Below are positions 3,621 to 26,773 of a DNA stretch of 35,195 nt, piece after piece. Within the stretch, counting starts at the first letter, position 1; each line of letters opens with the position of its first letter. This DNA comes from a virus. Location: IMG/VR virus record IMGVR_UViG_3300025155_000021, positions 1-35,195 of that record; one strand, 5' to 3'. The notes beneath the pieces were generated by a model that searched no databases, had not been told where the DNA came from, and saw only the letters and a list, made by a program, of their open reading frames with translations. A program made the position numbers and the translations under genes.

Positions 3621-4058
3621 TCAGTCCAACGTTGTGCTGTCGCTTACTTTCTCCCAAAATGTTTCGAATAAAACGTTGTCGATCTGCGTCCATGTTACCA
3701 GCGTCATCGAATCATCTGTTGCGATGCGCATGGAATAAACCCTGAGCGTTCCTACCCTCAGCCGGATGTACGCCTCGATGTAGCCCACGGAAGAGTACGA
3801 TTCAGCCGTGTAGTCGTATTCCCCCCCGCCCCACGGCGGAGGGTATGAGGACATCTGCGCCCAGATCCGTGTCTCCCCAATTTCCAGTTCGCCCGTGTAC
3901 CCGCCTTGTTCAGCGCCATTACGATAATACGCCATCAGGGTGTACGACCCGACAAGGCTTACGCCTGGAGACGTCAAGGAAACCGATGTGGGGCTACTCC
4001 CTCCCCCGCAAGAAGAGAGCAGGATTGCGAAAATCAGGAGCGGGAGGATTTTCTTCAT
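3621..4058 (-). CDS. Small secreted lipoprotein (possible moron)
   Basis: The 145-residue product starts MKKILPLLIFAILLSSCGGGSS, a type II signal peptide with lipobox LSSC, so the mature protein should be lipid-anchored at Cys19. The rest is a beta-rich domain of about 125 residues (GSYTLMAYYRNGAEQGGYTGELEIGETRIWAQ, then repeated strand-like segments) that resembles lipocalin-like or META-type small barrels, but no family is certain. The frame is open upstream to 4298, but the lipobox and a GAGG site before 4058 fix the start. It has its own promoter-like sequence and a strong terminator, as in phage moron genes that are expressed from a prophage. Surface exclusion of other phages is a possible role, by inference only. 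Confidence 0.8.
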   Translation of the reverse strand: MKKILPLLIFAILLSSCGGGSSPTSVSLTSPGVSLVGSYTLMAYYRNGAEQGGYTGELEIGETRIWAQMSSYPPPWGGGEYDYTAESYSSVGYIEAYIRLRVGTLRVYSMRIATDDSMTLVTWTQIDNVLFETFWEKVSDSTTLD

Positions 4059-4716: not shown

Positions 4717-4922
4717 GTTGCCTCCTTTGGCCCGTGGGCCGGTTGATGGTTCGTTTCATCCTCCCTCGGCCAGCATTCATCCGTCGCCTCTCCCCGCTCG
4801 TCCATCACCCGCAGCCCCGGCTCCTTGCAGAGTTGACACGCGAATATCTGCTTTCGCTGCAAGGGGCGCGTGTCGAATTTGGAACCGCACTTTGTGCAAA
4901 TACACCACACGGCGTCAGGCAT
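4713..4922 (-). CDS. Small zinc-ribbon protein, 69 aa
   Basis: Two CxxC knuckles (CTKCGSKF at about residues 9-16 and FACQLCKEPG at about 28-37) make a compact zinc ribbon of the type found in many small phage proteins and in RNA-polymerase or ribosome-associated factors. The rest is acidic and probably disordered. It overlaps the VRR-NUC gene by eight bases at its 5' end. The function is unknown. Confidence 0.65.
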   Translation of the reverse strand: MPDAVWCICTKCGSKFDTRPLQRKQIFACQLCKEPGLRVMDERGEATDECWPREDETNHQPAHGPKEAT

Positions 4923-5229
4923 CTATGGCCTCCATGACTTCCTCGACGGACCGCGCCGTGATCGCCAGCCCGCCCGATTCGTTGACCGTGTTCAGGAACT
5001 CCCGCTGCTTCTCCGCCCTCTTCTTCGTCGTCGATCCTCCCGGCCTCTTCACCTCGATCGACAGGAAGCGCCCTCCCGGAAGAACGCCGATGATATCTCC
5101 GCCGCCTTCGACCCCGAATTTCAGCGGACGCCCTCCGACGAACACCGTGCGGGTGTTGTTCCGCCACGCGAAGATCCTTTTCAGACGCAGGTACCCGAGG
5201 ATCTGCGCCTGGATGGCGGACTCGTTCAC
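4915..5229 (-). CDS. VRR-NUC domain endonuclease
   Basis: The 104-residue product is a stand-alone VRR-NUC (PD-(D/E)XK) nuclease, a family known to cut branched DNA. The key sequence is FGVEGGGDIIGVLPGGRFLSIEVKRPGGSTTKKRAEKQREFL, with catalytic D (GGGD), then E-x-K in SIEVKRP, then Q and FL on the helix. The GTG start at 5229 is chosen because GGAGG lies four bases upstream and the GTGA overlaps the stop of the preceding gene. The frame is open to 5346, but that extension overlaps the upstream gene fully. It sits next to the replisome organiser and helicase, which fits a role in resolving replication or recombination intermediates. Confidence 0.85.
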   Translation of the reverse strand: MNESAIQAQILGYLRLKRIFAWRNNTRTVFVGGRPLKFGVEGGGDIIGVLPGGRFLSIEVKRPGGSTTKKRAEKQREFLNTVNESGGLAITARSVEEVMEAIDA

Positions 5230-6176: not shown

Positions 6177-7129
6177 TTGAATGTCCTCTGATTTTGGGAG
6201 GAACCTTTGTACTCGATTGCCATCGCCGGTTCGTATTTCCTGCGGCTACCATCGAACCGAACGTACCGCTTCCCGCCCATCGTCCAACGTGGTTTTCCAG
6301 ACAATATGTACCCCACCGGTTGACGGGAGTTCGTTTCGGAATCTTCGAGCGGGTGATGGAGGATGAACGTCTCGGAGGATACCTGCGTGATGGCTCCGGA
6401 CCCCAAGACGCTGTGAGCGGTCGGTTTCGGTTCTGAATCGTCCCGGTCGGGCTTCCTTAAGTGGGCGATTACGATGATGGGTATCTCAAGTTCCTGCGCC
6501 AGCCCTTTCAGGGCCTTCGCCGCTACCCGCTCCGTCTCGTAGGAGTTCTTGTCCACGCTTGTCAGGTAGGAGAAATTATCGATCACCACCAGGTCAATCG
6601 CCTCTTGTCGTACCGTTTTCTGGATGATGTCGATGTGCTGCTTCCAGGACAGGTCGCGCTCCGGCTCGAAGAAAAGATACCCGGACGCCTGAATGATGGC
6701 GTAGGCCTCCGCCTCATCGGATTCAGACAGGACGGCTTTCCCGAGAACGTGGCCGGCCACAACTTCAAACGTCTCGTCTGCGGTCAACTCCAGACAATAG
6801 TTCCAGACCTTCACACCCTTGCGGGCCATCGGCCAAGTAAGATTCACGGCCAACGTGGTTTTCCCCGTGCCCTGATACCCGGCGAAGCAATAGACGTTCG
6901 CCCGCCTGAACGGGCCTGCCCACACATCCCACCATTCGATCCCCGTGGGGATGGCGTGTTCTCCGCGCTCCCGGCGGAGGCGTATCTTCTCGAAACAGTA
7001 TTCGGCGGTAAGTGCTCGGGAAAACTTCTCCCGCATTCCGTCGAGGGTTTGTAGATAGCCCCGCCGGAAGCGTATCTCTTCGAGCGTCTGCCGCTTCTCC
7101 CGCTCGATATCGAGCGGCGTTACAGGCAA
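6173..7129 (-). CDS. DnaB-like replicative helicase (RecA-fold ATPase)
   Basis: The 318-residue product is a RecA-type ATPase of the DnaB/Twinkle group. I see Walker A GYQGTGKTT (84-92), Walker B VVIDN (181-185), a sensor-like segment VIAHLRKPDRDD and the C-terminal LSGKPRWTMGGKRYVRFDGSRRKYEP. DnaB's N-terminal primase-binding domain is absent, as in many phage helicases; a short helical region of about 60 residues takes its place. The start is a TTG at 7129 that overlaps the preceding gene by ten bases; an internal ATG at residue 32 is an alternative. It would unwind DNA at the fork after loading by the organiser protein encoded next to it. Confidence 0.85.
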   Translation of the reverse strand: MPVTPLDIEREKRQTLEEIRFRRGYLQTLDGMREKFSRALTAEYCFEKIRLRRERGEHAIPTGIEWWDVWAGPFRRANVYCFAGYQGTGKTTLAVNLTWPMARKGVKVWNYCLELTADETFEVVAGHVLGKAVLSESDEAEAYAIIQASGYLFFEPERDLSWKQHIDIIQKTVRQEAIDLVVIDNFSYLTSVDKNSYETERVAAKALKGLAQELEIPIIVIAHLRKPDRDDSEPKPTAHSVLGSGAITQVSSETFILHHPLEDSETNSRQPVGYILSGKPRWTMGGKRYVRFDGSRRKYEPAMAIEYKGSSQNQRTFK

Positions 7130-14116: not shown

Positions 14117-14245
14117 TTGATCGAACTGGGCTACGGCCCGACGTGGTGCCGGGAGATCGTTCGCAAGCTGCGGATTGCGTCAGGGATCGACGGATCAGGT
14201 GGCGGGGCAAGCCCGGATGCAGTAAGGGATTCGATCTTTGACTGA
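14117..14245 (+). CDS. Possible small first gene of the rightward operon, 42 aa
   Basis: A TTG at 14117 opens a frame with coding-like composition: LIELGYGPTWCREIVRKLRIASG, then SPDAVRDSIFD. It ends one base into the tRNA. The start lies eight bases after the -10 TACTAT and has no ribosome binding site, so it would need leaderless translation from TTG. It occupies the place of cro in a lambdoid map, but no HTH is clear. It may also be non-coding. Confidence 0.3.
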   Translation: MIELGYGPTWCREIVRKLRIASGIDGSGGGASPDAVRDSIFD

Positions 14246-14321
14246 CTCGGGTGGCGGAATGGCATACGCGGGCGGCTTAAACCCGCCTTACATGAGGGTT
14301 CGACTCCCTCCCCGAGTACCA
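14245..14321 (+). tRNA. tRNA with UAA anticodon (Leu-like D arm, short variable loop)
   Basis: The full cloverleaf can be drawn: acceptor ACTCGGG/CCCGAGT with A73 and encoded CCA, D stem GCG/CGC with GG in the loop, anticodon stem GGCGG/CCGCC with loop CTTAAAC, and T arm GAGGG/CCCTC with loop TTCGACT. The anticodon is UAA, reading the leucine codon UUA, and the TGGCGGAATGG D region and A73 are leucine-like. The variable loop is only TTACAT (six bases), whereas bacterial leucine tRNAs have a long arm. It is thus either a minimised phage tRNA-Leu or a tRNA of uncertain charging. It sits at the head of the rightward operon and could help decode rare UUA codons. Confidence 0.85.
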
Positions 14322-16328: not shown

Positions 16329-16702
16329 AGATGGGCGTGGAAATCAAGAATGCAGTCATCGAGAGTGCCACAATAACGAGCGATGACCACGGGTGCCTGT
16401 CTGCATGGGTCTATCTTGACTACGGAGGTTCCGGTCAAGGCTTCGGCGGATACGCCCTCTATCTCCCGAAAAGTTTTACGCATCACAAATTGGGATCCGT
16501 CGCTGGTCATTTCATCTGGCGCGTAATGGAAATCGCGGGAGTTACCGAATGGTCAAAACTAAAAGGAAAGACGGTGAGGGTTAGGGGGGCCTATTCTGGC
16601 CCCATCGAGGCCATCGGCCACATCGTAAAAGACGATTGGTTCAATCCATCGAAAGATTTCAGGGAGGAAGAAGGGAAATGCAAATCACACTCGAATGGCT
16701 AA
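16325..16702 (+). CDS. Hypothetical phage protein, 125 aa ([14 protein letters not shown] family)
   Basis: The central sequence [22 protein letters not shown], followed by [29 protein letters not shown] and [17 protein letters not shown], marks a conserved family common in phages and prophages of Proteobacteria; its function is unknown. The start is either the GTG at 16325 (overlapping the previous stop) or the ATG two codons later. The 3' end overlaps the solenoid gene by 25 bases. Confidence 0.75.
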
Positions 16703-17457
16703 AAGAAAAAAATGCCTGCGCCGATGGCGTCGAATGGTTTCAGCGCAACTTCCCCGCAGGCGGCGGATACCAAGCCGTCCTTGACGCGCTAGCCCACGAA
16801 AACCTGTCGTCGTGGGGATCGTGGCTGTTGTCTACCGCCGGTCCTGCCGGTACTGTCCTGAAAATCAATGGCGACTATGAGGCGCATTTTGGCCTGTACT
16901 TCGCGGGCCGAGTTGAAATTTCGGAATCCATAAAAGTCGCCGGGCATTTTTTGGCCGGTTCGGGCATCAAGGCCGGTTCGGGCATCAAGGCCGGTTCGGG
17001 CATCAAGGCCGGTTCGGGCATCGAGGCCGGTTCGGGCATCAAGGCCGGTGAGGGCATCGAGGCCGGTGAGGGCATCGAGGCCGGTGAGGGCATCGAGGCC
17101 GGTGAGGGCATCGAGGCCGGTTGGGGCATCGAGGCCGGTGAGGGCATCGAGGCCGGTTGGGGCATCGAGGCCGGTTGGGACATCGAGGCCGGTGAGGGCA
17201 TCGAGGCCGGTGAGGGCATCGAGGCCGGTTGGGGCATCAAGGCCGGTGAGGGCATCGAGGCCGGTGAGGGCATCGAGGCCGGTGAGGGCATCGAGGCCGG
17301 TTCGGGCATCAAGGCCGGTGAGGGCATCAAGGCCGGTGAGGGCTACGGCATTTTCGCAGGCGTCCGAATCAAAATTTCAAACTGGTCAAAACACGCCCTG
17401 GTTGTTGCCAAAAAGAAACCGACGAATCTCATCTCCGGGGAGTGGAAGGAGAAGTAG
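16678..17457 (+). CDS. Gly-rich hexapeptide-repeat solenoid protein
   Basis: The 259-residue product has an N-terminal domain of about 92 residues ([21 protein letters not shown], then [21 protein letters not shown]). This is followed by 22 units of A-G-x-G-I-E/K in which x is Ser, Glu or Trp, and a C-terminal strand-rich end ([24 protein letters not shown]). With I in the inward position and G-x-G turns, the repeats fit a parallel beta-helix, perhaps left-handed as in hexapeptide proteins. The ATG at 16678 follows GGGAGGAAGAAGGGAA. The role is unknown; a rod-like binding surface is the most the sequence supports. Confidence 0.75.
16954..17349 (+). repeat. 18-bp tandem repeat array, 22 units
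   Basis: The unit is GCCGGTnnnGGCATCrAG, in phase with the reading frame. The variable codon is TCG, GAG or TGG, and one unit has GAC in place of the second Gly codon. The last unit is diverged. The reverse strand and another forward frame are also open, an effect of the 18-bp period. Confidence 0.95.
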
Positions 17458-23042: not shown

Positions 23043-23050
23043 AGGGGAAG
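23043..23050 (+). repeat. Target-site duplication, left copy (AGGGGAAG)
   Basis: AGGGGAAG here is repeated exactly at 26766-26773 on the far side of the element; a following G on both sides makes nine bases possible. The length fits IS1-family duplications. Confidence 0.8.
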
Positions 23051-23068
23051 GGTAGTGGGTCAGTTTGA
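23051..23068 (+). repeat. Left terminal inverted repeat of the transposon
   Basis: GGTAGTGGGTCAGTTTGA pairs with TCAAACTGACCCACTACT at 26748-26765; 17 of 18 bases match in inverted orientation, with the outermost base differing. Confidence 0.85.
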
Positions 23069-23077
23069 GATGCGTGT

Positions 23078-23093
23078 GCTTGAGAGGTCAGGC
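23078..23093 (+). promoter_or_regulatory. Degenerate copy of the transposon operator box
   Basis: GCTTGAGAGGTCAGGC resembles the perfect palindrome GCTTGAGCGGTCAAGC before the transposase, with two differences. It lies ten bases inside the left inverted repeat. No good promoter surrounds it. Confidence 0.45.
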
Positions 23094-23169
23094 AATGGTT
23101 GTTCACTTGGCGTGGTGTCCGCGATATGATGCGCGAATTAGGATCGGTCTCGTATGGGGGAGAAAAGGT

Positions 23170-24129
23170 TTGCAAGGAAGCGAAATCGCCACCTTATCGG
23201 TTGGTATCGGCGCAACCATATGGTTTGCGGTTTTCCCCCCAAGGACTATTCTGATGAGACTAATTCTTGGGATTTTTGCCATCGCTTTTTTAATATATGG
23301 CCTCACAACGATTACCTTGGAGTATGTAGCCATGAAAGTTTCATTATGGCCGATTGTAATTATTGGAGGAGTTGTAGGATGTATCGCCGCAGGATTGGCA
23401 TGGAAACAATCTATAAAACATCCTGCCCAAGCCGAACGACCTAAACTAACCGATGAGGTGACCACACTGCCGGAAATTCCTTCGCCGCAAGCAACACGGC
23501 AACCCGAGAAGGCACAGCCAGAAACTAAACAGACTCCACACCCGAGTAAAACATCTCCTTCTCCCGCGCAATCGAAACAAAAAGATGTTGATACAGGGTT
23601 AACTTTCCGAGAAGTACCACCTGAAAGTCTAGGGTTTAAGCGAACCGTGCCTGACAGTTTTACGATTGAGTTTGGGACAAACAAAGGGACATTCCCAACA
23701 GAACTCCTGGAAAGGCAGGTGCCATTTGAAAGACTTATCGGGATCAAGGCTGATGGCGATCTCCCACTAAAGGTTTATTTCGATAAAGACGGCGACATGA
23801 AGATCGACGCAACAATATACGAAAGTCGCGGAAAGGTTGCTGCGGTCATTAAATCCAGTAATTTCGCTGTTATAAACAGCGGATGGGACAGAAATTGGGA
23901 TCCAGTTGCCTTTGAAATTGTCGATGAAAGGCAAAATCCAATATTTCAGATTGAGAGAATAAATTGGAATTTCCTTAAGTTAAGGGGTTTATTAATCACT
24001 TCTGAGGGGGCTGTTTTTGCAATCACGGACAGTGCATTAATTATTAATCCTACAGGACAAGTAGCACCTCCGAAGCGACTGTTTCAGTACCCCGGCAATG
24101 CCCACTTGCATCAACGTGTAGGGAAATAG
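23170..24129 (+). CDS. Membrane-anchored cargo protein of unknown function
   Basis: With the TTG start at 23170 (GGGGGAG seven bases upstream) the product has about 319 residues. Three membrane helices come first (IATLSVGIGATIWFAVF, LILGIFAIAFLIYGL, PIVIIGGVVGCIAAGLAW). A Pro/Gln/Lys/Ser-rich linker of about 60 residues follows, then a soluble beta-rich domain (FTIEFGTNKGTFPTELLERQVPFERLIG, then MKIDATIYESRGKVAAVIKSSNFAVINSG). The frame is open upstream into the inverted repeat, but no good start is there. I do not recognise the family. The layout (membrane anchor plus sensor-like domain) occurs in cargo genes of mobile elements. Confidence 0.65.
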   Translation: MQGSEIATLSVGIGATIWFAVFPPRTILMRLILGIFAIAFLIYGLTTITLEYVAMKVSLWPIVIIGGVVGCIAAGLAWKQSIKHPAQAERPKLTDEVTTLPEIPSPQATRQPEKAQPETKQTPHPSKTSPSPAQSKQKDVDTGLTFREVPPESLGFKRTVPDSFTIEFGTNKGTFPTELLERQVPFERLIGIKADGDLPLKVYFDKDGDMKIDATIYESRGKVAAVIKSSNFAVINSGWDRNWDPVAFEIVDERQNPIFQIERINWNFLKLRGLLITSEGAVFAITDSALIINPTGQVAPPKRLFQYPGNAHLHQRVGK

Positions 24130-24154
24130 TATTTGAGAAAGGGGTATCTGATTG

Positions 24155-24994
24155 TCAGTTTAGCAACGAGGCGATCTCCTCCACCGACCACACGTGATCC
24201 GATACCCCCGCTTCCATCGCGGGTGTAACCCTCAACGTCTGATGGATTCGCGCAAAGTTGTAGTACATGAAATGCAGGCTCACGGCATGGCTCAGGTTCT
24301 CCACCTTTTTCGAGAAAGCATTCGTTAGCCGCGTGAATCGGCGCATGCTCATCCGCATGGTAAGATTGTTCCGTTCCACATAGCTGGTCGATATGTATTT
24401 CGGATCGGGTTCTCCGTTGATCTTGGCAACTCGCGTTCCTGTGCATTCTGCGGGGCTATATTTGGTGTCAGGATTTTTATTGCTGTTCTCGCTTCCGTAC
24501 ATCTTGACCAGCATCGCGTAATCGACGTTCCCGGAGAAGGAGTTTTCCACGGCATCAACATATTTTCGGTAGCCGTCTGATGTCAGTTGGATTCGGTGGG
24601 CAAGTCTTCCAGCGAGGTTATTTATGAACTCAGCAGCATGCTCAGCGGTCCGGCGGCCAATCTTCCAACAAGGGACCAGTTTCGTATCAGCGCAAATCGC
24701 CGTGAAGGTCCATACGTCACCGAACCCAAACTGATCCTCGTATTTTTCAGGGACATTCCTTCCCTTCGCGTAACAGAAGCTCCATACCTCATCGACCTGG
24801 ACGCGCTTGCAGTTCAGGTTGTGGAAGGTTTTATCCTGGTACTCCGCGCATGCCTTGCCAAGATCGGCAAGGAGCTTGAGCACCGTGCCCTTGGCCGCGC
24901 CCGTCATGCGGGACGTGGCGCGGATCGAGTTCCCCTCTACCAAGGCGGCTACGATTTGCGCCCTCTGCTTCGTGCTCAGCCTATTCATCTCCAT
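24155..24994 (-). CDS. IS1-family transposase
   Basis: The 279-residue product starts with an HTH domain (STKQRAQIVAALVEGNSIRATSRMTGAAKGTVLKLLADL). The catalytic core has D68 in VQVDEVWSF, D140 in LTSDGYRKYVDAVE and E207 in SYVERNNLTMRMSMRRFTRLTNAFSKK, the IS1-type DDE triad. The C-terminus, HFMYYNFARIHQTLRVTPAMEAGV, is also typical. The gene is intact in one frame, unlike classic IS1 with its frameshift. The nearby promoter carries a palindrome, so expression is probably repressed. Confidence 0.88.
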   Translation of the reverse strand: MEMNRLSTKQRAQIVAALVEGNSIRATSRMTGAAKGTVLKLLADLGKACAEYQDKTFHNLNCKRVQVDEVWSFCYAKGRNVPEKYEDQFGFGDVWTFTAICADTKLVPCWKIGRRTAEHAAEFINNLAGRLAHRIQLTSDGYRKYVDAVENSFSGNVDYAMLVKMYGSENSNKNPDTKYSPAECTGTRVAKINGEPDPKYISTSYVERNNLTMRMSMRRFTRLTNAFSKKVENLSHAVSLHFMYYNFARIHQTLRVTPAMEAGVSDHVWSVEEIASLLN

Positions 24995-25017: not shown

Positions 25018-25046
25018 ATCATGCTTGAGCGGTCAAGCAATGTCAA
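25018..25046 (-). promoter_or_regulatory. Transposase promoter with embedded palindromic operator
   Basis: On the minus strand TTGACA (25041-25046) is followed by 17 bases and CATGAT (25018-25023). The spacer holds the perfect palindrome GCTTGACCGCTCAAGC (25023-25038), placed where a bound protein would block RNA polymerase. A half copy, GCTTGAGCGG on the plus strand, lies upstream at 25070-25079. Confidence 0.65.
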
Positions 25047-25124
25047 CAAGTATTTTCTGCCCCCGCTATGCTTGAGCGGAAATGCATCTTGACACGGGAT
25101 ACAACCGTGGGTTATAAATAAAGG

Positions 25125-25208
25125 TGCCCGTGGTGGGACTCGAACCCACAAGGCCGGCCAGCCAGCGATTTTAAAGACCGCCGTGTTTGCCAGTTTCACC
25201 ACACGGGC
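25125..25208 (-). tRNA. tRNA-Leu-like gene with UUA anticodon (ochre-suppressor candidate)
   Basis: The cloverleaf is complete: acceptor GCCCGTG/CACGGGC with A73, D stem GTG/CAC with GG in the loop, anticodon stem GCGGT/ATCGC (one G-U pair), loop CTTTAAA, a 15-base variable arm, and T stem GTGGG/CCCAC with loop TTCGAGT. Position counting puts T-T-A at 34-36, so the anticodon UUA reads the stop codon UAA. The long variable arm and A73 are those of tRNA-Leu, whose synthetase does not need the anticodon. CC but not the final A of CCA is encoded. It lies inside the transposon between the transposase and a cargo gene. Shifting the loop to give UAA would break the anticodon stem. Confidence 0.8.
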
Positions 25209-25220
25209 ACCAGGTTGTGA

Positions 25221-25234
25221 CCCCCTAACGGGGG
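25221..25234. other. Small hairpin just upstream of the tRNA
   Basis: CCCCC-TAAC-GGGGG forms a tight hairpin 13 bases before the tRNA 5' end (in tRNA orientation). It may affect tRNA processing or mark the end of the upstream transcript; no other role can be seen. Confidence 0.35.
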
Positions 25235-25242
25235 CAGGGTAT

Positions 25243-25295
25243 GGGTGAGACGAGCGGACCGCCAAGCCTACTCCGTCTCACCCACTTTGTTTTTT
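25243..25295 (+). terminator. Intrinsic terminator, plus-strand orientation
   Basis: GGGTGAGACG (25243-25252) pairs perfectly with CGTCTCACCC (25274-25283) and is followed by TTTGTTTTTT. It would stop rightward transcription running antisense through the transposase and tRNA towards the DUF5343-like gene. No plus-strand gene ends just before it. Confidence 0.65.
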
Positions 25296-25362: not shown

Positions 25363-26082
25363 TTATTTCTTTTCCCCAAGACCCAATGTAATGCGCACAA
25401 TTTGTACAAACCGATCTACATCCTCCACGTTGTAGTCTTGATTCATTGTAAGAGTCCATATTTTGCCAATACCAATAGATATCGGTATCCGAACCATTCC
25501 TTCGGGTGGTTTCTCGTCACCACTATGCTGAAATTCTTGCTCACCACCCTTTGCGCCGTTGTTTCCCTGTTGACCATGTGTCTTTTTCTGGCGTGTTCCG
25601 CCTGGTTGCCTTTGTCGTCGTATCTTCTGTATATATTTTGAAAGTTGTATGTCCCCATCCTTTGCTATAGATATAAAGAAAGCAACGCATTTACGTATTG
25701 TATCACCTGAAATACCTAGCCCTTCAAACCTCTCATCAAGTTGCCTAGAAGTAGCGGTTTTAAGATCAAAATTTTCTGAAAAAAGAAAAACATATGATTC
25801 CTTTACAATACCATTGTAGTATTTTTGCTTTTCTTCACCCTGAGCCTTGACTAGATTTGTCAATTTCTCCGTAGGCTTGCCGTCATCTGCTGTCAATTTC
25901 AAGTAACGCAGTGCATGAAGTATATTGGTTTGTGTTGCGCCAGAGAGGCTTCCCATGACGCTTCGGTCAATACGACCAGGGAGACCGTGACCCCGCAGCC
26001 CGTCCACGAAGTTCTTAAATGATTTGTAGGCGACGTACGGAGGAACAGGCTTCCGGCCCCCATCAGTTTCGCCCTTCGTCAT
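25363..26082 (-). CDS. DUF5343-like protein
   Basis: The 239-residue product has the family signature PPYVAYKSFKNFVDGLRGHGLPGRIDRSVMGSLSGATQTNILHALRYLKLTADDGKPTEKLTNLV, an N-terminal winged-helix-like region. It is followed by a helical part (TSRQLDERFEGLGISGDTIRKCVAFFISIAKDG), a Gln/Gly-rich linker and a C-terminal strand-rich end (VRIPISIGIGKIWTLTMNQDYNVEDVDRFVQIVRITLG). DUF5343 proteins are common on mobile islands, often near defence genes; their function is unknown. It is clearly AT-richer than phage genes. GGAGG precedes the ATG at 26082. Confidence 0.8.
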   Translation of the reverse strand: MTKGETDGGRKPVPPYVAYKSFKNFVDGLRGHGLPGRIDRSVMGSLSGATQTNILHALRYLKLTADDGKPTEKLTNLVKAQGEEKQKYYNGIVKESYVFLFSENFDLKTATSRQLDERFEGLGISGDTIRKCVAFFISIAKDGDIQLSKYIQKIRRQRQPGGTRQKKTHGQQGNNGAKGGEQEFQHSGDEKPPEGMVRIPISIGIGKIWTLTMNQDYNVEDVDRFVQIVRITLGLGEKK

Positions 26083-26450: not shown

Positions 26451-26699
26451 TTACTTCTTGGTCGTTTTCGCCCAACGTGTCTGCGCCGCCTTCTTGGCGA
26501 TCTCCTTCCGCTTCTTCGCGGATAGCTTGGCCGCTCGGGCCTTTCCGCCTTTTAGTCCGCCTAATCGTCCGAGGGCAACGGCTGCGGGATTCTTCTTCGT
26601 CGGTTCAGATATTGGCTTCTCTTCGCTCGTGGCATCCGCCACAATCGACGCGGCAAGTTGGGAGATATCGCGGGGTCGCCTCTTCTTTGGGGTTGTCAT
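26451..26699 (-). CDS. Small very basic KGG-motif protein, 82 aa
   Basis: The product ends ALGRLGGLKGGKARAAKLSAKKRKEIAKKAAQTRW, a sequence found in many bacterial mobile elements. The G-L-K-G-G-K-A-R and I-A-x-K-A-A-x-x-R-W motifs resemble KGG stress-type and histone-like proteins. The N-terminus is basic and disordered. It is likely to bind nucleic acid. It has its own promoter containing the same operator-like box as the transposase, so it may be co-regulated with transposition or be the regulator. Confidence 0.7.
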   Translation of the reverse strand: MTTPKKRRPRDISQLAASIVADATSEEKPISEPTKKNPAAVALGRLGGLKGGKARAAKLSAKKRKEIAKKAAQTRWAKTTKK

Positions 26700-26735: not shown

Positions 26736-26747
26736 CGGCCCGGCAAA

Positions 26748-26765
26748 TCAAACTGACCCACTACT
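26748..26765 (-). repeat. Right terminal inverted repeat of the transposon
   Basis: TCAAACTGACCCACTACT is the inverted partner of 23051-23068, with one mismatch at the outermost base. Confidence 0.85.
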
Positions 26766-26773
26766 AGGGGAAG
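26766..26773 (+). repeat. Target-site duplication, right copy (AGGGGAAG)
   Basis: This is an exact copy of 23043-23050 directly beyond the right inverted repeat. Confidence 0.8.

Follow-up and report, generated by a model that had tools for sequence, protein, structure and literature searches.

Why does a tRNA with a leucine-type body present the anticodon UUA, and why does it reside in a transposon inserted into a phage? An anticodon U34U35A36 reads the stop codon UAA. The gene lies in the window, that is, the whole stretch of DNA analysed here, an entire virus record of 35,195 bases, whose genes include those for terminase, tail, replication helicase and endolysin.

Identity of the tRNA

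25125–25208, minus strand: tRNA with a Leu body and UUA anticodon (reads UAA); anticodon loop CUUUAAA, A73, long variable arm; the 3' end reads GCACCT, without an encoded CCA

ARAGORN, one of the checks proposed in the earlier note, was applied to the window and reports a tRNA-Stop(tta) on the minus strand at 25123–25208. The Rfam family RF00005 matches 25125–25208 on the same strand with 56.6 bits (gathering score 29) and an E-value of 8e-10, which excludes a chance match. The body has a 7-bp acceptor stem, a 5-bp T stem, the long variable arm and A73, and thus the complete class II cloverleaf described in the earlier note is borne out. Apart from the anticodon, this is an ordinary Leu-type tRNA when aligned with other phage UUA tRNAs. 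Three other IMG/VR contigs hold the same DNA at 100% identity, hence an assembly slip in a single contig is ruled out.

The anticodon was assessed by counting stem pairs in all registers. For the loop CUUUAAA (CTTTAAA in the DNA) the anticodon stem has 5/5 pairs and the anticodon is UUA, as first read, whereas the next best register yields 2/5. The sequence features of an ochre suppressor are all present: UUA in a 7-nt loop, a 5-bp stem and U33. The loop differs by one base from that of tRNA-Leu(UAA), the anticodons being distinguished by position 35, as had been pointed out, so that one may suppose that the true anticodon is UAA, or that the gene is dead. However, a better register giving UAA was looked for and not found, all arms are intact, and ARAGORN calls UAA for a similar loop in contig L062, hence it discriminates between the two anticodons. 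We find a wrong register or a pseudogene hardly credible.

A pattern search for Leu-type UUA tRNAs in 85,000 genomes, covering the ACACG form of the D arm, produced one match, which was false. Two other odd tRNAs may be mentioned. One, at window positions 14245–14318 on the plus strand, outside the transposon, has the anticodon UAA (reads the leucine codon UUA) and a Leu-like D arm, yet a short class I variable loop, and its CCA is encoded. The other, at 6817–6907 of L309, a 377-kb phage contig, has the UUA anticodon and G73 on a class II body of the Ser type.

The transposon carrying the tRNA

The description of the tRNA as transposon-borne holds: it lies inside terminal inverted repeats flanked by a perfect 8-bp target duplication. 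Since the repeats end at 23051 and 26765 and the flanks are duplicated, the element is 3715 bp long. The shared terminal repeat GGTAGTGTCTCAGTTTGAA and its variants were found by comparing relatives of the IS1-like transposase at 24155–24994; an end at 24145 was replaced by 23051 once the inverted repeats had been located.

23043–23050: left target-site duplication AGGGGAAG, same as 26766–26773
23051–23069, plus strand: left terminal inverted repeat GGTAGTGGGTCAGTTTGAG (family consensus GGTAGTGTCTCAGTTTGAA)
23065–24129, plus strand: cargo ORF of 354 aa with no assigned function; start uncertain, ends with TAG
24155–24994, minus strand: IS1-related transposase, 279 aa, ends with TGA (Pfam PF03400; 55 and 80 viral relatives)
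25018–25046, minus strand: predicted sigma-70-like transposase promoter (TTGACA-17-CATGAT), overlapping the palindrome TGCTTGACCGCTCAAGCA
25220–25236, minus strand: small hairpin TGCCCCCGTTAGGGGGT between the large hairpin and the tRNA, from folding
25241–25285, minus strand: large hairpin from folding, on the 5' side of the tRNA and not followed by a U-tract
25363–26082, minus strand: DUF5343-like protein, 239 aa (Pfam PF17278); TAA stop directly followed by TGA
26451–26699, minus strand: small basic ORF, 82 aa, a conserved mark of the transposon family, upstream of the transposase in about 40 relatives
26747–26765, minus strand: right terminal inverted repeat AGTAGTGGGTCAGTTTGAT, pairing with 23051–23069
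26766–26773: right target-site duplication AGGGGAAG, same as 23043–23050

A 3.7-kb IS1-related transposon has inserted itself into the phage, and the tRNA belongs to its cargo. The transposase scores 28.6 bits with PF03400, above the cut-off of 24.1, and 55.9 bits with the NCBIfam IS1 equivalog, below the cut-off of 100; therefore the element is IS1-related and does not belong to the canonical IS1 family. A motif resembling the palindrome TGCTTGACCGCTCAAGCA precedes the transposases of L015 and L037 as well. The score of the DUF5343-like protein with PF17278 (24.9 bits) is slightly below the cut-off of 27, its match to the PADLOC candidate PDC-M34A is weak (25.5 bits), and its structure predicted from the single sequence has a mean pLDDT of 37, too low for use. 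The 354-aa cargo ORF has no match in Pfam, PADLOC or NCBIfam. The counterpart of the small basic ORF in L159, a Mesorhizobium plasmid, is annotated as 'histone H1'. A terminator scan at the large hairpin (25241–25285) gave none, and the interpretation of the hairpins as terminators was dropped, as no U-tract follows them. Elsewhere in the window, an ORF at 16636–17457 contains a long run of repeats.

Mobility is also suggested by contig L002. It carries the identical element, but beyond 23051 its sequence enters a glyceraldehyde-3-phosphate dehydrogenase (GAPDH) gene. L002 is either a second site of the element or a chimera built at the repeat; in both cases the element is repeated in that sample. 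Contig L004/L008 stops exactly at the repeat.

It might be suggested that the phage itself uses the tRNA, reading UAA as sense in its late genes. Phages that recode UAG or UGA often do have suppressor tRNAs (PMC13037316). However, no UAA recoding was found in a large jumbo-phage survey (PMC13037316), and the tRNA of the window is part of an insertion whose target duplication is perfect. The genes open normally, and UAA ends 14 of 50 hand-picked window genes, which readthrough would lengthen by 0 to 542 codons. Hence UAA is not globally recoded, in agreement with the earlier note, and recoding of the late genes is contradicted and very improbable. The module containing the tRNA is most likely not a phage-recoding device, as the phage keeps its UAA stops.

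The slot upstream of the transposase in related elements

Viral contigs, plasmids and whole genomes yielded about 127 distinct elements in which the transposase is nearly complete, and their tRNAs were detected by ARAGORN and two covariance models. In at least nine relatives the transposase is preceded, on the same strand, by a gene for a tRNA or a tRNA-like RNA, usually at a distance of 60–160 nt; the tRNA carriers form only about 7% of the elements.

Window: UUA tRNA in the slot, class II Leu body
L015 (another phage, transposase 62% identical to that of the window): UUA tRNA in the same place
L157 and its relative L302: GCU tRNA upstream of the transposase
L113: GCU tRNA; transposase degraded
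L200: GCU tRNA upstream of the transposase
L037: AGU tRNA upstream of the transposase
L191: ACA tRNA with a broken anticodon stem
L049: class II UAU tRNA, 372 nt from the transposase
L245: class II UUC tRNA, 780 nt from the transposase
L243: tRNA-like RNA at 3841–3939, 62 nt from the transposase, with an additional hairpin in its 35-nt anticodon loop

The gap between the tRNA and the transposase start is 107–162 nt in the window, L015, L157, L113, L200, L037 and L191. Perfect 8-bp duplications flank the whole element in L015, L157 and L243. In L200, L049 and L113 both repeats were found and the duplication does not match; in L037, L245 and L302 one end was found, and in L191 no end was found with confidence. 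The tRNAs of L157 and L037 have C33 instead of U33.

In a quick tree of the transposases, with modest support, the closest relatives of the window transposase carry no tRNA, the two UUA carriers (the window and L015) are not sisters, and neither are the GCU carriers L200 and L157/L113. Thus the tRNA is an acquired cargo rather than an ancestral part. As to the presence of the tRNA in related elements, which the earlier note proposed to check, the picture is mixed: UUA recurs in L015 and odd tRNAs occur across the tree, but the closest transposases are tRNA-free.

Another tRNA of L245, at 4903–5000, has the anticodon CCU and an expanded D loop; it is located downstream of the transposase and preceded by a large hairpin. 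A search of E. coli with the GCU tRNA as the query yielded no match.

Hairpins and partner proteins

In most elements with a tRNA, folding reveals a hairpin of 10–17 bp a short distance before the tRNA, with no U-tract; it is weaker in L049, and the upstream tRNA of L245 has none. A protein of about 155–180 aa adjoins the tRNA in L157, L113, L200, L069 and L073. These proteins may be aligned as one family, with weak identity (18–24%) beyond the L157/L113 pair, and a similar-looking protein is present in L049. They match no Pfam family; judged by eye, they are candidates for a coiled coil plus a winged helix. The L157 protein has no relative in the viral search, and its genome matches are weak and confined to the last 40 residues or so, these probably being SSB tails. 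The proteins of L157 (3526–4026) and L113 (10310–10816) end with DLDDEIPF, similar to the acidic tip of the single-stranded DNA-binding protein.

L015 has no protein partner, and in the window the neighbour of the tRNA is the DUF5343-like protein. No odd tRNA is adjacent to DUF5343 genes in 299 genomes, hence this pairing has been seen once. Sister elements have toxin-antitoxin-like neighbours, RES/Xre in L160 and Panacea in L049. The 4.4-kb contig L069 (1–4407) has an IS1595-type transposase and contains a UUA tRNA-Leu and a class I GCU tRNA around a partner-type protein; it also encodes a protein with a Panacea (SocA-like) antitoxin domain. In phage L071, at about 1075–1205 of the reverse complement, a GCU-like tRNA is read directly upstream of a UUA tRNA, and is interrupted by a palindromic insertion of about 42 nt flanked by the 8-bp repeat AAGAGCGT. 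In the element of L047 (2257–2465) a related partner protein precedes the tRNA slot, which has three hairpins and no tRNA.

Such arrangements may be explained if the tRNA acts outside translation, as a part of a structured non-coding RNA (a decoy, an RNA antitoxin, a sensor of a tRNA-cutting toxin or a processing signal), the odd anticodon blocking decoding or marking the molecule for a nuclease. The large hairpin, not a terminator, that precedes the tRNA in most carriers, the three hairpins without a tRNA in L047 and the toxin-antitoxin-like neighbours are consistent with this. Since some relatives cannot decode, with the broken stem of L191, the 35-nt loop of L243 and C33 in L157 and L037, a non-translational role is possible; moreover, some allo-tRNAs(UAU) are unusable by E. 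coli and have been proposed to be parts of transposons or toxin-antitoxin systems (PMC7609411). However, the repeated occurrence of UUA and GCU on independent bodies implies that the anticodon itself is selected, and the window tRNA retains all features needed for charging and decoding. We regard a role outside translation as a serious, though lesser, possibility.

Mismatch of anticodon and body

In bacteria, the tRNAs of class II are those for leucine, serine and tyrosine, and the remaining ones are of class I. The mismatch was scored by this rule for class I and class II bodies, and stop-reading tRNAs were counted as mismatched. Seven of the nine distinct ARAGORN tRNAs upstream of the transposase are mismatched, compared to 4/28 at other places, counted in loci retrieved otherwise than by the UUA pattern (Fisher test, p about 0.0009), the nine being not fully independent, as the near-duplicate lineages L157/L302 and L113 inflate the 7/9. 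The seven mismatches are UUA on a Leu body (two cases), GCU on an Arg-like class I body (three cases), and UAU and UUC on class II bodies.

One pair of homologous copies, G257 and G348, allows for estimation of conservation. The elements are 82.4% identical over 1.7 kb, with 76.9% for the partner gene, 83.3% for the hairpin region and 100% (76/76) for the GCU tRNA; the chance of 76 unchanged sites at 82% identity is about 3e-7. The hairpin fold is kept in both copies, with one two-sided change. Only a fragment of the transposase is left in G348, therefore the tRNA is kept there without transposition. No diverged homologue of the UUA element of the window was found, and the 76/76 test covers the GCU tRNA.

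These data bear on the suggestion that the tRNA rides along neutrally, being a tRNA-Leu of the phage or host that was picked up by the transposon and has drifted to UUA. Most elements are indeed tRNA-free, the carriers are scattered on the tree, and UUA tRNAs occur in other phages outside the transposon. On the other hand, the position, orientation and anticodons recur, the mismatched tRNAs are in excess in the slot, and the GCU tRNA is conserved in one lineage. Hence neutral capture is disfavoured, and we consider it unlikely.

Possible function

Leucyl-tRNA synthetase (LeuRS) does not read the anticodon, hence charging of the window tRNA with leucine is plausible. The tRNA would be transcribed and then cut out by RNase P, a host enzyme would add CCA, and LeuRS would charge it with leucine; leucine would then be placed at some UAA stops, resulting in partial readthrough. 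The Arg-like GCU tRNAs would likewise place arginine at AGC and AGU codons. The module is perhaps restrained by the partner protein. On the scale of the family, these IS1-related transposons repeatedly gain an RNA module in a fixed slot upstream of the transposase, the usual order being a regulator-like protein gene, a large hairpin and a tRNA with an anticodon unfit for its body.

Our main reading, with a probability of about one half as judged from the sequences, is that the slot holds a recurrent mobile cargo that tampers with translation, toxin-, competition- or defence-like, and that the window tRNA is built as a leucine-inserting ochre suppressor. That the anticodons UUA and GCU turn up repeatedly speaks for selection acting on decoding or on recognition of the anticodon. 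At that, C33, the broken stem and the giant loop in the relatives argue that the general role may lie outside translation. The earlier suggestion that the element carries its own stop-codon suppressor is thus retained as far as a UUA tRNA-Leu in a transposon is concerned; suppression may not be the general function of the slot, since the latter holds other mismatched tRNAs, some of them unfit for decoding. A more specific version, in which the transposon family spreads ochre and missense suppressor tRNAs, each accompanied by a hairpin RNA and in many cases by a partner protein, the set serving as a translation-corrupting module for competition, addiction or phage defence, is tentative and rather doubtful.

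Relation to known systems

The allo-tRNAs with 8/4 and 9/3 structure (Mukai et al. 2017), from bacteria and metagenomes, have anticodons mismatched to the body (PMC7609411). They include one ochre anticodon, and the UAU forms are linked with a transposon ORF and suspected of transposon or toxin-antitoxin ties (PMC7609411). The window tRNA is similar in that its anticodon is unfit for the body. However, the 12-bp acceptor branch of the allo-tRNAs is 8/4 or 9/3, whereas the window tRNA has the standard 7/5 and a Leu body, and hence falls outside the definition; in addition, inverted repeats and target duplications mark the boundaries of the carrier transposon described here.

Suppressor tRNAs are also known in phages that are not recoded, such as zeta crAss-like phages, and have been proposed to weaken hosts or host defences (PMC12386605). 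As in the window, there is no codon reassignment in the genome. However, those tRNAs read UAG or UGA and are owned by the phage, whereas the one considered here reads UAA and is owned by a transposon inside the phage. The 'tRNAOther' of Bacillus cereus, an odd pseudo-tRNA that is located in a mobile region and whose effects lie outside normal translation, is reported to be non-functional in translation (PMC3399842), whereas the window tRNA is intact.

Transporter insertion sequences, relatives of IS1 and IS1595, share with the element a DDE transposase, short inverted repeats, 8-bp duplications and the presence of passenger genes; what sets the window element apart is its passenger, a mismatched tRNA preceded by a hairpin. 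In the literature searched, largely open-access papers, we found no description of an insertion sequence with defined ends that has a suppressor tRNA as cargo.

Suppressor and mismatched tRNAs from metagenomes have been puzzling: they look functional, and yet the genomes harbouring them are not recoded. The transposon family described here is a carrier for them, with defined boundaries and a fixed slot in which they reside. This slot provides a direct route to collecting mismatched tRNAs and to testing altered decoding as a mobile trait.
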